Below are positions 1,525 through 21,073 of a stretch of 36,062 nt of DNA, piece by piece. A model generated the notes under the pieces. The model searched no databases. It saw nothing but the letters and a program-made list of their open reading frames with translations, and was not told the DNA's origin. How positions within the stretch are numbered: the first letter of the stretch is position 1; each line of letters opens with the position of its first letter. Position numbers and translations under genes: made by a program. This stretch comes from an uncultured Muribaculaceae bacterium (GTDB lineage: Bacteria; Bacteroidota; Bacteroidia; Bacteroidales; Muribaculaceae), in NCBI GenBank assembly GCA_947176745.1, contig CAMWRV010000027.1, positions 1 to 36,062 on the forward strand. The letters run 5' to 3'.

Positions 1525-1534
1525 AAATATTTTG

Positions 1535-1542
1535 TAATTTTG
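1535..1542 (+). promoter_or_regulatory. -7 box of small-RNA copy 1
   Basis: TAATTTTG matches TAnnTTTG. No TTTG lies at the right distance for a -33 element; the nearest (1519-1522) is only 12 bp away. Expression may therefore need an activator or be weak. Confidence 0.5.
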
Positions 1543-1547
1543 CATTG

Positions 1548-1617
1548 AGTTTTTCATGGTATTAGATTTTAAGGTTAACGCAAGATTGGTTGTCGGGATG
1601 ACAATCAATTTTTTTTT
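1548..1617 (+). ncRNA. Candidate small RNA, copy 1 (about 70 nt)
   Basis: The start is predicted about 6 nt after the -7 box and the end is the T run of the terminator. The 5' half (TTTTTCATGGTATTAG and on to about 1583) is predicted single-stranded and could pair with mRNA; the 3' half is the terminator hairpin. A short open frame starts at the ATG in this RNA but is not stopped before the terminator, so it is probably not translated as a unit. Paralogous multi-copy small-RNA families (for example FopS) are reported in Bacteroides; membership is untested. Confidence 0.6.
1584..1617 (+). terminator. Intrinsic terminator of small-RNA copy 1
   Basis: An 11-bp stem (1584-1594 with 1600-1610, including two G-U pairs), a GGGAT loop and seven further T residues. 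Confidence 0.85.
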
Positions 1618-1647
1618 GCATTATAACGAACCAAGACCCCATCCCAC

Positions 1648-1717: not shown

Positions 1718-3151
1718 TTATTTTTTCGGCTTGATGTCGAGCTTCACAGGCTTGATCATATTCTCTGGAGCGAGTATCGTGTCAAGATCTTTCTTGTCGA
1801 GTATGCCATGTTCAAGCACAAGATCATATACGCTGCGGCCGGTCTCCATCGCCTCTTTGGCGATCTTGGTGGAGTTCTTGTAGCCTATCACCGGATTGAG
1901 GGCGGTGACGACGCTGATACTGTTGTGTACGTAAGAGCGGCATTTGTCGACATTGGCCGTTATGCCGTCAACGCAGAGTCTGCGTAGCGTATCGAAGCCG
2001 TTGATCATAAGGTCTACCGACTCGAAGTCACACTGGGCGGTCACCGGCTCCATGACGTTCAGCTCAAGCTGGGCTGCCTCCGAAGCCATTGTGACGCAGA
2101 AATCATTGCCTATGACCTTGAAACAGATCTGGTTCATCACTTCGGGAATGACGGGGTTGACCTTTCCGGGCATGATCGAGCTTCCGGGTTGACGCGGCGG
2201 CAGATTTATCTCGCCGATGCCGCATCGAGGGCCGCTTGCAAGCAGACGCAGGTCGTTGCAGATCTTGCTCACCTTGGTCGCGACGCGCTTGAGAGCCGAC
2301 GAATAACCGACCATGCACGACGTATCAGATGTAATGCCGACAAGATCGCGGGCAAGCGTGATGTTCCAGCCGGTGATCTCGGCGATTGCGGCAGTGCACT
2401 TCTCTGCGTATCCCGGCTCGGCGCATATTCCGGTGCCGATTGCGGTCGCCCCCATGTTGATCGTCAGAAAATCGGCTGCAGCCTCGTCAAGATGTCGGAT
2501 CTCATCCTCCAGTATGGATGCGAACCCGCTGAATGTCTGCCCGAGAGTCATGGGCACGGCATCTTCAAGCTGGGTGCGGCCGATCTTGATTATATCCTTG
2601 AATTCCTCGGCTTTGCGGCGGAATGCCTCGATAAGTTCGCCGTAATGACGTTTGAAACGCAGGTGCGCGAGATACATTCCTATATGTATGGCCGTCGGAT
2701 AGGCGTCGTTGGTAGACTGCGAGCGGTTTACATGGTCGTTGGGCGAACAGTATTGATATTCACCTCTCTTGTGCCCCATCAGTTCCAGCGCACGGTTGGC
2801 GATCACCTCGTTCGCATTCATGTTGGTGGAGGTTCCGGCGCCTCCCTGGATCATATCGACAGGGAACTGGTCGAGATGCTCCCCGCCTATCAGCTCGCGG
2901 CAGGCCTGTGCGATCGCATCATACTGAGCGTCGGTGAGCAGCCCGAGCTGATGGTTGGCCATGGCTGCCCCGAGCTTGGTTATGCCAAGACCTTTTACAA
3001 ACTCCGGATAGTCGTAGAGGTGGAATTTGCTGATCTCGAAATTCTCAATGCCACGAAGCGTCTGAACGCCATAAAGGACATTTTCAGGAACCTCGACATC
3101 GCCGAGCAGATCGGACTCGATGCGGAATCCTTTTTCACAATTGTCTTTCAT
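1718..3151 (-). CDS. aspA: Aspartate ammonia-lyase
   Basis: Converts L-aspartate to fumarate and ammonia in the cytoplasm. It has 477 residues, the usual length. The fumarase/aspartase signature GSSIMPGKVNP is at residues 323-333, the substrate-binding GTSTNMNANEV at about 106-116, and GRTQLEDAVPMTLGQ at 191-205. The Gln in GRTQL, where class II fumarase has His, and the N-terminal DLLGDVEVPENVLYGVQTLR both favour aspartase over fumarase. There is no signal peptide. It is transcribed away from dcuB, with 296 bp between them that hold a -7 box (3237-3244). With the periplasmic asparaginase and DcuB it completes a route from asparagine to fumarate, which can feed anaerobic fumarate respiration. 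Confidence 0.93.
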   Translation of the reverse strand: MKDNCEKGFRIESDLLGDVEVPENVLYGVQTLRGIENFEISKFHLYDYPEFVKGLGITKLGAAMANHQLGLLTDAQYDAIAQACRELIGGEHLDQFPVDMIQGGAGTSTNMNANEVIANRALELMGHKRGEYQYCSPNDHVNRSQSTNDAYPTAIHIGMYLAHLRFKRHYGELIEAFRRKAEEFKDIIKIGRTQLEDAVPMTLGQTFSGFASILEDEIRHLDEAAADFLTINMGATAIGTGICAEPGYAEKCTAAIAEITGWNITLARDLVGITSDTSCMVGYSSALKRVATKVSKICNDLRLLASGPRCGIGEINLPPRQPGSSIMPGKVNPVIPEVMNQICFKVIGNDFCVTMASEAAQLELNVMEPVTAQCDFESVDLMINGFDTLRRLCVDGITANVDKCRSYVHNSISVVTALNPVIGYKNSTKIAKEAMETGRSVYDLVLEHGILDKKDLDTILAPENMIKPVKLDIKPKK

Positions 3152-3244: not shown

Positions 3245-3447
3245 ACCTTTTTTTCTCTTTTCTCATGTATAAATACGCATGATTCGACAAAAGGTTCCGG
3301 AATATGCTGAACAACATATTGCGACCGCGAACAAAAGAGCGTTAAAAATGCTTTAATAATTGTCAAAGTTGCCGGGCAGCCGCCACAGCCAGTTCTTTCA
3401 GCCGTGAGACTACGATCCGGAAACCTGTAAACCAAAAACGACAAGGC

Positions 3448-4749
3448 ATGATAATCCAACTATTGTTTGTACTGGCCGCCATCGTAGTCGGCGCCCGTCT
3501 GGGAGGCATAGGACTCGGCGTCATGGGCGGTGCCGGACTGGCCGTACTGGTCTTTGCGTTCGGACTTGAGCCGACCTCCCCGCCCATCGATGTGATGCTG
3601 ATGATAGCCGCCGTCATCTCGGCGGCAGCTGCGATGCAGGCCGCCGGCGGTCTCGACTGGCTGGTGAAGGTGGCGGAAAAACTGCTCCGCAAAAACCCCT
3701 CGCACGTCACGATCGTCAGTCCGCTCGTGACATACCTGTTCACCTTCGTTGCCGGCACCGGCCATGTGGCATATTCGGTGCTTCCGGTCATTGCCGAGGT
3801 GGCTCGCGAGACGAAAATCCGACCCGAGCGTCCGCTCGGCATAGCCGTCATCGCCTCGCAGCAGGCCATAACAGCGAGTCCCATATCTGCGGCCACAGTA
3901 GCATTGCTTGGCTTGCTCACAGGATTCGACATAACTCTTTTCGACATTCTCAAGGTAACAATTCCGGCCACACTTATTGGTGTGCTTGTCGGAGCTCTTC
4001 TTTCCAAACGCGTAGGCAAGGAACTCATGGAAGACCCCGAATACCTGCGCCGTGTAGAGCAAGGCATGATCAAGGAGAATTCTCTCAAATTCAATGAAAT
4101 CCGCAATGTGCGTACCGCCATAACATCGGTTGTGCTCTTTCTTGCGGCAACTGTGCTGATTGTGCTGTTCGGTTCGATTCCGGCCATGAGGCCCACCTTC
4201 AACGGCGAAGCCGTCGGAATGCCGGCTCTGATCGAGATACTCATGCTGACCGCCTGCGCGGTGATTCTCATAGTATCAAAAACGAACGGAATCGCACCGA
4301 CTCAGGGCAGCGTTTTCATCGCCGGCATGCAGGCCGTCATTGCCATCTTCGGAATCGCATGGATGGGCGACACATTCATCAACGGCAACATATCGGTCCT
4401 GACTGAGTCGATCAAAGGTATCGTTACGGAAATGCCCTGGCTCTTCGCGGTGGCTCTGTTTGTCATGTCGATCCTGCTCTACAGTCAGGCGGCGACCGTC
4501 CGCGCAATAATGCCGCTCGGAGTGGCTCTCGGTCTGAGTCCCTGGATGCTGATAGCTCTTTTCCCTGCGGTCAACGGATATTTCTTTATTCCAAATTATC
4601 CGACACTGGTGGCTGCAATCAATTTCGACCGTACCGGCACAACCCGAATCGGCAAATACATACTCAACCATTCGTTCATGATGCCCGGCATGGTCGCAAC
4701 GATTGTGGCCATATGCACCGGTCTGCTCCTCATACAGTTCTATTCATGA
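3448..4749 (+). CDS. dcuB: Anaerobic C4-dicarboxylate transporter, Dcu family
   Basis: An inner-membrane transporter of 433 residues, close to the usual 430-446 of DcuA/DcuB. It is hydrophobic throughout, with roughly ten to twelve predicted membrane segments. The N-terminal run GARLGGIGLGVMGGAGL, the segment FVAGTGHVAYSVLPVIAEVA near residue 100 and SQQAITASPISAATVAL near 147 are typical of the family. It exchanges aspartate, fumarate or malate for succinate. It starts a three-gene plus-strand run (39 bp to the asparaginase, then 69 bp to the porin), which fits uptake of aspartate made in the periplasm. DcuA against DcuB cannot be settled from sequence alone; the DcuB label follows Bacteroidetes annotation. 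Confidence 0.88.
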   Translation: MIIQLLFVLAAIVVGARLGGIGLGVMGGAGLAVLVFAFGLEPTSPPIDVMLMIAAVISAAAAMQAAGGLDWLVKVAEKLLRKNPSHVTIVSPLVTYLFTFVAGTGHVAYSVLPVIAEVARETKIRPERPLGIAVIASQQAITASPISAATVALLGLLTGFDITLFDILKVTIPATLIGVLVGALLSKRVGKELMEDPEYLRRVEQGMIKENSLKFNEIRNVRTAITSVVLFLAATVLIVLFGSIPAMRPTFNGEAVGMPALIEILMLTACAVILIVSKTNGIAPTQGSVFIAGMQAVIAIFGIAWMGDTFINGNISVLTESIKGIVTEMPWLFAVALFVMSILLYSQAATVRAIMPLGVALGLSPWMLIALFPAVNGYFFIPNYPTLVAAINFDRTGTTRIGKYILNHSFMMPGMVATIVAICTGLLLIQFYS

Positions 4750-4788: not shown

Positions 4789-5856
4789 ATGAAAAATCTA
4801 AAATCACTCGGCACGCTGGCCGTGATGCTGGTCGCTTCGGTCGCATCAGCTTTCGCACAGCAGAAACCCAATGTCTACATCCTCGCTACCGGAGGGACAA
4901 TTGCCGGAACCGGCAAATCGGCCACTGCGTCGGGATATACCGCAGGACAGGTCGCGATCCAGTCGCTGATCGACGCCGTGCCTGAAATGAAGGACGTAGC
5001 CAACGTCACCGGCGAACAGGTGGTCAACATCGGCTCGCAGGACATGAACGACCAGGTGTGGCTAACTCTGGCCAAACGCATCAACGAGCTGCTTGCATCC
5101 GATCAGGTCGACGGCATCGTGATCACCCACGGAACAGACACAATGGAAGAGACCGCTTATTTCCTCAATCTTACCGTCAAGAGCGACAAACCGGTGGTCA
5201 TCACCGGCGCAATGCGTCCTTCGACGGCAATGAGTGCCGACGGTCCTCTCAACCTCTATAATTCAGTTGTGACAGCTGCCGACCCGGCATCGGCCGGACG
5301 CGGAGTCCTGATCGTAATGAACGGTCTGATCCTCGGCGCGCACGGCACCCAGAAGATGAACACCGTCGATGTCCAGACATTTCAGGATCCCGACGGAGGC
5401 GCTCTCGGCTATGTCTACAACAGCAAACCCTATTACAACCTCACGACCACAAAGAAACACACCACTCAGAGCGTGTTCGACGTCACAGGTCTCGACTCTC
5501 TTCCCAAGGTCGGCATCGTCTATGCATATTCCAACGTCGAGGCCGACGTGATGGCTCCTTTCCTTGACAAGGCCAACGGCTACAAGGGCATAATTCATGC
5601 GGGACTCGGCAACGGCAACTATCACAAGAATATCTTCCCCACTCTGCTCGATGCCCGCAAGGAAGGCATAATAGTGGTGCGCTCAAGCCGTGTGCCAACC
5701 GGCCCGACCACACTTTATGACGAGGTGGATGACGCGAAATACCAGTTTGTCGCATCCTGGGAACTCAACCCGCAGAAAGCCCGAGTGCTTCTCATGCTCG
5801 CGCTGACAAAGACTTCCGACTGGCAGCAGATCCAACAGTACTTCGAGGAATACTGA
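4789..5856 (+). CDS. ansB: Type II L-asparaginase, periplasmic
   Basis: Hydrolyses L-asparagine to aspartate and ammonia. The first 23 residues (MKNLKSLGTLAVML... ending AFAQ) form a signal peptide, so it acts in the periplasm. Catalytic Thr37 lies in ATGGTIAG (residues 33-40), Tyr50 in SGYTAG matches Tyr25 of the E. coli enzyme, and the second signature HGTDTMEETA (114-123) gives the Thr-Asp pair. GAMRPSTAMSADGP supplies the conserved Lys/Arg region. At 355 residues it is full length. It lies 39 bp after dcuB, so it is probably co-transcribed; its product is the substrate of the transporter and then of AspA. Confidence 0.93.
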   Translation: MKNLKSLGTLAVMLVASVASAFAQQKPNVYILATGGTIAGTGKSATASGYTAGQVAIQSLIDAVPEMKDVANVTGEQVVNIGSQDMNDQVWLTLAKRINELLASDQVDGIVITHGTDTMEETAYFLNLTVKSDKPVVITGAMRPSTAMSADGPLNLYNSVVTAADPASAGRGVLIVMNGLILGAHGTQKMNTVDVQTFQDPDGGALGYVYNSKPYYNLTTTKKHTTQSVFDVTGLDSLPKVGIVYAYSNVEADVMAPFLDKANGYKGIIHAGLGNGNYHKNIFPTLLDARKEGIIVVRSSRVPTGPTTLYDEVDDAKYQFVASWELNPQKARVLLMLALTKTSDWQQIQQYFEEY

Positions 5857-5925: not shown

Positions 5926-7143
5926 ATGAAAACAGCACACATAGCCCTCATGGCCGGGACAATGCTTGCCACAGGCACAGTCTTCGCACAGCAGGACGAG
6001 ACCAGTCACTTCATGACTGACAACGAGAAAGGGATAATCGAGGAAATCTTCAAGATCGAGAAGAAGACCGACAAGTTCAACCTCACCCTCGACATGCACG
6101 GAGACTTTGAGTCCGACTGGACAGGATCAAAGTTCGACGGCGGCAGATTCAAGTTTCAGGAACTGCGCGTCGAGGCCAAAGGCAACATCAACAGCTGGCT
6201 GAGCTACCGTTACCGGCAACGTCTCAACAAGGGAGACAGCACTGACGGATATTTCGACAACGTGCTCAACAGCATCGATGTCGTCGGCATCGGACTCAAC
6301 TTCAAGAAGTGGTCGCTCTTCCTCGGAAAACAATGCGCCGACTACGGCGGCATCGAGTTCGACCTCAACCCGATCGAGATTTACCAGTATTCCGACATGG
6401 TCAACTACATGTCGAACTTCATGACCGGTGTCAACGTGGCCTACAACCCCACACCCGGACAGCAGTTCCAGTTCCAGATCCTGAACTCGCTCAACAGCTC
6501 GTCGGCCGACATGTACGGCGATTACGAAAAGGCCAAGCTTCCTCTTGTATACACAGTCAACTGGAACGGCAATTTCGGCGACGTATACAAGACACGCTGG
6601 TCGGCATCATTCATGAACGAGACCAAAGGCGAGCACATGTGGTACTTCGCATTGGGCAACGACTTCCGTCTCAGCGACAAAGTGGGAATGTATTTCGACT
6701 GGATGTACTCTCTCGAAGGTGTGGATCGCAAGGGCATAATCACCGACATCGTCGCCCCGAACGGCTGGAACAGAAAGGCGGCGAAGACCGACATTATGTC
6801 GTTCATTCTCCACCTCAACTATCGCTTCCATCCGGCATGGAACCTGTTTGCAAAGGTAATGTATGAGAACGAAGGGGTCTACAAGACAAACACCATGGAC
6901 GTGCTCGCCCCTGGCGGCGAGACTGAAGTTCCCGTAGAGCTCCGGAAGGGAAAATACCGCACCGCACTCGGTTACATCGGCGGTATCGAGTACTACCCCT
7001 TCAAGGACCGCAACCTCCATTTCTTCGCTACCTACGTGGGCCGCAACTATCTTTACACAGCCAAGGCCAAGGCGTTTGGAGCTGAAGACTACAACACCAA
7101 CAGCGTGCAGGTCGGCTTCATCTGGTCGATGCCCGTATTCTGA
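5926..7143 (+). CDS. Outer-membrane porin of the OprO/OprP type
   Basis: A 405-residue protein with a signal peptide (MKTAHIALMAGTMLATGTVFA). The rest alternates hydrophobic and polar residues with many aromatic strand ends, typical of a beta-barrel, and ends in F (SMPVF), the usual outer-membrane assembly signal. Blocks such as FKFQELRVEAKGNINSWLSY and YGGIEFDLNPIEIYQYSDM resemble the phosphate-selective porin O/P family found in Bacteroides. The ATG at 5926 was chosen because the signal peptide starts there; an in-frame TTG at 5887 would add 13 residues that spoil it. Last gene of the dcuB run, it may let asparagine or dicarboxylates cross the outer membrane; the substrate is inferred from context only. 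Confidence 0.8.
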   Translation: MKTAHIALMAGTMLATGTVFAQQDETSHFMTDNEKGIIEEIFKIEKKTDKFNLTLDMHGDFESDWTGSKFDGGRFKFQELRVEAKGNINSWLSYRYRQRLNKGDSTDGYFDNVLNSIDVVGIGLNFKKWSLFLGKQCADYGGIEFDLNPIEIYQYSDMVNYMSNFMTGVNVAYNPTPGQQFQFQILNSLNSSSADMYGDYEKAKLPLVYTVNWNGNFGDVYKTRWSASFMNETKGEHMWYFALGNDFRLSDKVGMYFDWMYSLEGVDRKGIITDIVAPNGWNRKAAKTDIMSFILHLNYRFHPAWNLFAKVMYENEGVYKTNTMDVLAPGGETEVPVELRKGKYRTALGYIGGIEYYPFKDRNLHFFATYVGRNYLYTAKAKAFGAEDYNTNSVQVGFIWSMPVF

Positions 7144-7200: not shown

Positions 7201-7341
7201 CATATGCCGCAAACTACGGTGATACGATAATTTATATGCAAATTAATGTTAATCAAATCGCATAATAATGCCATTTATTTAATTTATGTTAAATTATAGA
7301 AATATTTTTATGTTTTAGAGCAGTGTTTTAGAAATATTTTG

Positions 7342-7349
7342 TAATTTTG
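7342..7349 (+). promoter_or_regulatory. -7 box of small-RNA copy 2
   Basis: TAATTTTG, as in copy 1, again without a clear TTTG -33 element. The spacer 7201-7331 before it is AT-rich and otherwise empty. Confidence 0.5.
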
Positions 7350-7354
7350 CATTG

Positions 7355-7424
7355 AGTTTTTCATGGTATTAGATTTTAAGGTTAACGCAAGATTGGTTGT
7401 CGGGATGACAATCAATTTTTTTTT
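7355..7424 (+). ncRNA. Candidate small RNA, copy 2 (about 70 nt)
   Basis: The predicted transcript is identical to that of copy 1 because the whole transcribed part lies inside the perfect repeat. Two identical RNAs would have the same targets, so any difference between the copies must lie in the upstream promoter bases, which are only partly conserved. Confidence 0.6.
7391..7424 (+). terminator. Intrinsic terminator of small-RNA copy 2
   Basis: The same 11-bp stem, GGGAT loop and T run as at 1584-1617. Confidence 0.85.
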
Positions 7425-7510
7425 GCACCTGCCTGTCGGTGCCTACTCCAGCCGCAAACACACCGGCTCCCGATCATACATACATGCATCCACTCCGAAT
7501 CAGACTCCGT

Positions 7511-21009: not shown

Positions 21010-21073
21010 TATAGCTTGCATAATAATAAAAGTTACCGCCTGGGCGGTAACTTTTATTATTATGCAAGCTATA
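21010..21073. terminator. Bidirectional terminator, 31-bp perfect inverted repeat
   Basis: Arms 21010-21040 and 21043-21073 pair perfectly with only a 2-nt gap. The core is a GC-rich GTTACCGCC stem followed on both strands by TTTTATTATTAT. It separates the convergent POT gene (stop at 20973) and lipoprotein gene (stop at 21076), and comes within 3 bp of the latter's stop. Confidence 0.9.

Follow-up and report, generated by a model that had tools for sequence, protein, structure and literature searches.

A FopS small RNA gene pair with an upstream Cur-type palindrome in an uncultured Muribaculaceae bacterium

FopS RNAs were described in Bacteroides thetaiotaomicron (B. theta). According to the sections of PMC11697453 used here, 14 FopS genes give rise to RNAs of 65–70 nt that use their 5' seed to block a SusC mRNA at its start region, and the RRM protein RbpB binds these RNAs and relieves repression. 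The model presented there is built around RbpB; expression responds to bile, and a further transcriptional regulator was proposed and called unknown. Conservation of the family was reported within the Bacteroidaceae, Cur is mentioned in one other context, and the main text describes no palindrome or inverted repeat (PMC11697453). Cur (BT4338) is a CRP-like regulator with the published consensus wwwTATGTTnTAnAACATAwww (PMC6989115, in part). Judging from the portions of the papers at hand, MasB is a Cur-activated sRNA of B. theta (PMC10994844), three further B. theta sRNAs (BTnc140, BTnc195 and BTnc364) lie near Cur sites (PMC10294740), and PM2, the promoter motif of the sRNA GibS (RF04182), has elements at −10 and −30 (PMC7366714). 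Our literature search for FopS together with Cur or BT4338 found no paper linking both.

The window (the whole stretch of 36,062 nt analysed here) contains, as the original prediction had stated, a perfect direct repeat of 96 bp, 1525–1620 and 7332–7427. The flanking base differs on both sides, so that the repeat is exactly 96 bp long. Both copies match Rfam family RF04319 (FopS) with 76.7 bits against a gathering cut-off of 56, and the RNA span given by Rfam is 72 nt (1547–1618 and 7354–7425). By this assignment, each of the repeats holds one FopS sRNA gene. The match supports the multi-copy trans-acting small RNA that had been predicted and names the family that the prediction had left open. 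The features of the locus are as follows.

1503–1516, + strand: Cur-type palindrome ATGTTATATAACAC, 9/10 half-site positions (consensus from PMC6989115)
1535–1542, + strand: −7 promoter box TAATTTTG of copy 1, from the sequence
1547–1618, + strand: FopS sRNA copy 1 (subfamily A), with the seed in the unpaired 5' part, then the terminator hairpin and U run (RF04319, 76.7 bits; fold)
1718–3151, − strand: aspA, aspartate ammonia-lyase, the best-supported predicted FopS target, at its start region (NF008909, 708.8 bits; duplex)
3304–3317, + strand: Cur-type palindrome ATGCTGAACAACAT in the aspA–dcuB interval, 130 nt ahead of dcuB (pattern)
3448–4749, + strand: Dcu-family anaerobic C4-dicarboxylate transporter, here called dcuB (profile search)
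4789–5856, + strand: ansB, type II asparaginase, a predicted target in relatives (NF008304, 555.4 bits; duplex)
5926–7143, + strand: Porin_O_P family porin, a weaker predicted target in relatives (PF07396, 165.7 bits; duplex)
7310–7323, + strand: Cur-type palindrome ATGTTTTAGAGCAG, 8/10 half-site positions
7342–7349, + strand: −7 box TAATTTTG of copy 2, from the sequence
7354–7425, + strand: FopS sRNA copy 2, identical to copy 1 (RF04319, 76.7 bits)

We consider it probable that the locus as a whole represents a FopS pair switched by Cur, free of RbpB and acting on SusC-type genes as well as on aspA, ansB, dcuB and porin genes. Each gene would have a Bacteroidota promoter and a terminator of its own and give rise to an RNA of ≈72 nt. 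Extrapolating from B. theta, the unpaired 5' seed would be antisense to start regions and block translation of outer-membrane and nutrient-uptake genes. The CRP-like Cur would switch the genus copies via the conserved palindrome just upstream, most likely activating them when carbon is short. In this genus the RNA would work without the RRM protein RbpB, and its targets would reach beyond SusC-type genes to aspA, ansB, dcuB and the porin (aspartate/asparagine/C4-dicarboxylate). Beyond the published account are the lack of RRM_1 matches in the genus genomes sampled, the Cur-type box, the predicted pairing with aspA, ansB, dcuB and porin, and three subfamilies with varying bracketed genes; switching by Cur is what we infer from these sequences.

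A box TAATTTTG, which we take to be a Bacteroidota-type −7 promoter box, is present in each repeat where a promoter box had been predicted. The window RNA folds into an unpaired 5' stretch and one 13-bp hairpin (MFE −13.3, z −1.8; 9 of 200 shuffles fold as well). The predicted order of an unpaired region and a hairpin was thus correct, and the stem of 11 bp has to be revised to 13. A third copy in the same genome has the same architecture, a single-stranded 5' seed followed by a single terminator hairpin, and the hairpin was obtained in 6/6 sequences given when folded separately (z from −0.87 to −3.80). Stem covariation was sought in a MAFFT alignment, which scattered the stem, and RNAalifold gave no pairs. 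No ORF of at least 80 aa covers either copy. The frame from the ATG at 1556 stays open through copy 1 and closes only past it. In subfamily B the corresponding frame ends after some nine codons, and in other copies it is shifted; therefore this is not a conserved reading frame, in agreement with the original prediction.

The genus was sampled with 61 genomes drawn from a larger genus. It has three FopS subfamilies: A, to which the window copies belong, B, and C, which has a GibS-like seed. The length, the 5' seed, the terminator-only structure and the presence of several copies per genome are as in B. theta FopS. In contrast to B. theta with its 14 genes, the window's own genome has three copies over the cut-off and one weaker; subfamily A differs further by a 5' GAG and an extra U, and its copies have the Cur-type box upstream. 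The seed CAUAGUAU of subfamily C resembles that of GibS, whereas the window copies have CAUGGUAU in its place. Unlike GibS, the C copy of the own genome is only ≈73 nt long, is without the GibS middle part and scores 33.5 bits against the RF04182 cut-off of 115. Another subfamily C copy with a GibS-like seed (L070, 7664–7736) is also only ≈72 nt long.

To score the palindrome, only the half-sites ATGTT-N4-AACAT were used, of 10 positions, and the published Cur consensus was consulted after the palindrome had been found. In the loci analysed, FopS was located at 144 places, 135 of which had full flanks, giving 128 distinct upstream regions in four groups. In subfamily A of the genus, the palindrome occurred at a fixed place with at least 8/10 positions in 57 of 63 distinct upstreams, as against a mean of 1.1 (largest 5) in mononucleotide shuffles of the same 63. 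After clustering at 70% identity, 15 of 21 A upstreams had it, compared with a shuffle mean of 0.37. When any place was allowed, the count was 58/63 versus a dinucleotide-shuffle mean of 10.4 (largest 19). Subfamilies B (0/12) and C (1/12; none clear at ≥9/10 among the 12 genus copies with flanks) serve as internal controls. Elsewhere in the order, 22 of 41 upstreams carried the palindrome ≈10 bp nearer the start, and the other 19 had none in the fixed window. The genus A palindrome fits the published Cur consensus and looks like a Cur docking site; control of FopS by Cur, its direction and its targets are predictions.

Counted by strand, the strict pattern ATGTTNTATARCAT matched 104 times, at 94 places and in 24 of the 26 genomes chosen, compared with 11 matches for the reversed control. 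Many of these matches are not at FopS; neither window box matches the strict pattern, and the six strict matches of the own genome lie elsewhere. Among 20 loci from named genomes, all metagenome-assembled, the box was present at ≥9/10 in 12 and absent at that level in eight. Judged by their letters, two of these loci, L325 and L326, look identical to L076 and L100 from the order sample. A box was found at 3/3 Parabacteroides FopS copies and at 1/13 copies from Bacteroides/Phocaeicola, the group to which the published FopS work belongs. Of the plasmid and phage records with a FopS match, 15 of 26 were examined. The box was not found at FopS of phage BX-TP2, and eight viral contigs keep the seed with the box in 0/8 at ≥8/10. 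The Bacteroides/Phocaeicola copies L342–L351, which have no Cur-type box, share another upstream stretch, approximately AAGTCCGTA, immediately ahead of the TTTG in the −7 box; it is possibly the site of the bile response.

The position of the box bears on the direction of control. In the genus, the A box starts at −43 to −46 and is centred near −38, about where class II CRP activator sites lie, and this argues for activation. The order-level box starts mostly at −33 to −38; its centre, near −28, falls on the usual −33 element, and a protein bound there could stand in the way of polymerase. Activation as well as repression by Cur is reported in the part of PMC6989115 used here, and another Bacteroides sRNA, MasB, is activated by Cur (PMC10994844). 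That the palindrome is a repressor site, through which Cur would shut FopS off when carbon is short and thereby free SusC and aspA translation, is on this evidence unlikely, yet it is the strongest competitor of activation by Cur, which we prefer.

HTH_Crp_2 matches were obtained in 18/18 genomes searched and in 14/14 control genomes; the family alone therefore says little. In each of ten genus genomes, one CRP-family match scored at least 47 bits and the next at most 28.4. Among 26 CRP-family proteins examined, a long branch with full support sets apart 18, including the ten from the genus. The genus protein has 233 aa in 8/10 and is longer by the first ATG in 2/10. A GTGTT-N4-AACAN box lies up to 160 nt upstream of its gene in 7/10 genus genomes, in line with the autoregulation that the literature, so far as it was available to us, proposes for BT4338. 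In two other genus genomes, the first-ATG start is further out and the wrong upstream stretch may have been read. A solved-structure search with the first 40 of the 233 residues gave no CRP-like match. By conservation, the similar box and the family, this protein is a putative Cur orthologue. Alternatively, the palindrome might serve a different dimeric regulator whose site resembles that of Cur, for example a stress or bile regulator. The bile response of B. theta FopS, with its regulator called unknown in the sections used of PMC11697453, would favour such a protein, but the box fits the published Cur consensus including its spacing, no second CRP-family protein in the ten genus genomes scores above 28.4 bits, and the single strong one has a similar box upstream in seven of them. 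We regard another regulator as improbable and retain Cur.

Pairing of the seed with start regions was evaluated over orthologue sets, the members of which are not independent; mechanical ORF starts, many of them false, were a poor target control and the sets were used instead. Of 14 gene families, ten were taken to the dinucleotide test and four with only one or two starts were dropped. Mean pairing energies were −17.8 kcal/mol for aspA (n = 8), −16.0 for ansB (n = 8), −15.2 for dcuB (n = 12) and −14.7 for the porin (n = 5), and none of 300 dinucleotide-shuffled seeds reached the mean of any of the four. For the other families, the number of 300 shuffled seeds reaching the mean was 6 for tpr662, 10 for hpt, 23 for pept, 96 for adk, 132 for cur and 144 for glyq. 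Since tpr662 and hpt, meant as controls, were also low, it is chiefly the aspA group that stands clearly apart. Out of 40 mononucleotide-shuffled seeds, the corresponding numbers were 0 for aspA, 0 for ansB, 1 for dcuB, 2 for the porin, 1 for tpr662, 5 for pept and 13 for hpt. In the window itself, only aspA pairs strongly (−18.4, as against −11.1 for dcuB, −12.5 for ansB and −11.2 for the porin). Seven SusC starts were compared with 89 other mechanical starts. The full seed gave p = 0.046 in a rank test, with 0/100 shuffled seeds as good; the short seed gave p = 0.209, with 6/100 as good. By these values, the signal for SusC targeting is weak.

A 10/10 palindrome (Y/R allowed) is located 62–133 nt before dcuB in 6/12 loci, the window included (a raw count), and the other six have no 10/10 box upstream. 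The dcuB gene occurs in 12/61 genus genomes and, by comparison of positions, lies within ≈5 kb of FopS in three of the 12 (G000, G005 and G008). Physical dcuB–FopS linkage as a function was considered and rejected, as the stretches retrieved around the other nine dcuB loci, some of them shortened by contig ends, contain no FopS.

Unlike B. theta, the genus sample contained no RRM_1 (PF00076) match in any of its 61 genomes, the own genome included; 22 of them are at least 90% complete with at most 5% contamination, and the same search gave a match in a control Bacteroides genome. Order-wide, RRM_1 was present in 140/198 genomes. By comparing the two lists, it is missing from 17/45 FopS genomes (38%) as against 58/198 overall (29%); thus, FopS and RRM_1 do not travel together. 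For an rpoB tree, 34 of the 45 FopS genomes were chosen; two had no rpoB match and 30 were kept among the matches listed, 16 without RRM_1 and 14 with it. The RRM label needs eight changes on this tree, at least five of them forced by well-supported branches. One supported group, seven genomes from three families, is wholly RRM-free. The bootstrap of the tree as a whole had not quite settled. Association with RbpB characterises the B. theta system and does not enter the Rfam definition, so that the window RNAs remain members of the family. Lineages free of RRM proteins would show that FopS has no need of RbpB.

Spot 42 and CyaR are CRP-controlled sRNAs of Enterobacteria, and the predicted arrangement would, like them, be an sRNA arm of a global carbon regulator. 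It would share with MasB an sRNA under the Cur regulator, while the target of MasB, in the part of PMC10994844 used here, is a different one. Through a Cur-type box upstream, the FopS family would be connected to the master regulator of carbon limitation in gut Bacteroidales. As a tentative extension, for which we would put the chances at slightly under even, FopS outside Bacteroides may be the RRM-independent sRNA arm of the Cur regulon, in feed-forward on Cur-marked aspartate/asparagine/C4-dicarboxylate genes, and the RbpB-antagonised, mostly box-free FopS of Bacteroides may be a later rewiring of this older circuit.

Additional copies were found within the own genome and beyond it, refuting the notion that only two exist: the own genome has a third with 65.1 bits, over the cut-off (C21), and a fourth with 44 bits, below it (C33). 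In the genus sample, 59/61 genomes match RF04319 at E up to 0.001 and 56/61 over the cut-off; of 198 genomes order-wide, 45 have FopS, 37 of them over the cut-off. The original prediction had ascribed the identity of the two repeats to recent duplication or to selection. The 60 bp upstream of the two copies are identical at 42/60 positions (shuffle mean 23.9; 0/2000 as high), and the 60 bp downstream at 21/60, near background (119/2000 as high). The 72 nt of the window FopS equal both copies in another species (G031, L056), and a copy in a third species (G012, L067) scores equal to the window against itself; the flanks differ among species sharing the 72 nt. Copies can therefore be identical without having been duplicated recently. 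When 26 copies, hand-chosen from genus and order with subfamily C left aside, were aligned, 27 of the first 30 positions did not vary. Selection appears better supported than recent duplication, and gene conversion may be a source of the identity.

In the genus loci retrieved, A copies lie within 6 kb of each other in at least ten pairs, all in the same orientation, two of them with a copy cut by a contig end. The genes enclosed vary: aspA-dcuB-ansB-porin in the window, trkA-trkH and an AAA-ATPase in G031, a kinase and two proteins without family in G025, and a DUF5131 gene in G030; other pairs have only a gap of 250–400 bp between them. We read the same-strand pairs as local tandem duplication at a rearrangement-prone site. 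A transposon end or mobile cassette, for which a check had been proposed, found no support, as no transposase family was matched by any flanking or bracketed protein searched. Recent duplication of non-functional sequence, or a mobile-element end, would go with the perfect 96-bp direct repeat and the same-strand pairs with varying cargo in relatives, but is hardly credible given an Rfam match over the cut-off, a seed conserved across the order, an identical 72-nt RNA in another species, where the flanks have diverged, and no transposase family among the flanking proteins searched.

Same-strand FopS arrays were also seen in other families (L151, L152, L153 and L154); L152, for example, has four copies ≈289 bp apart. 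On one viral contig (L330, 3818–3922), a FopS seed lies directly behind a tRNA-Arg gene (3850–3922, − strand), as if tRNA processing released the RNA. Elsewhere in the window, positions 21010–21073 form a perfect inverted repeat, its 31-bp arms separated by 2 bases. Positions 3–512 hold a Gly/Gln-rich gene that contains 27-bp repeats and is truncated at the contig end; relatives of this gene adjoin FopS in several species.
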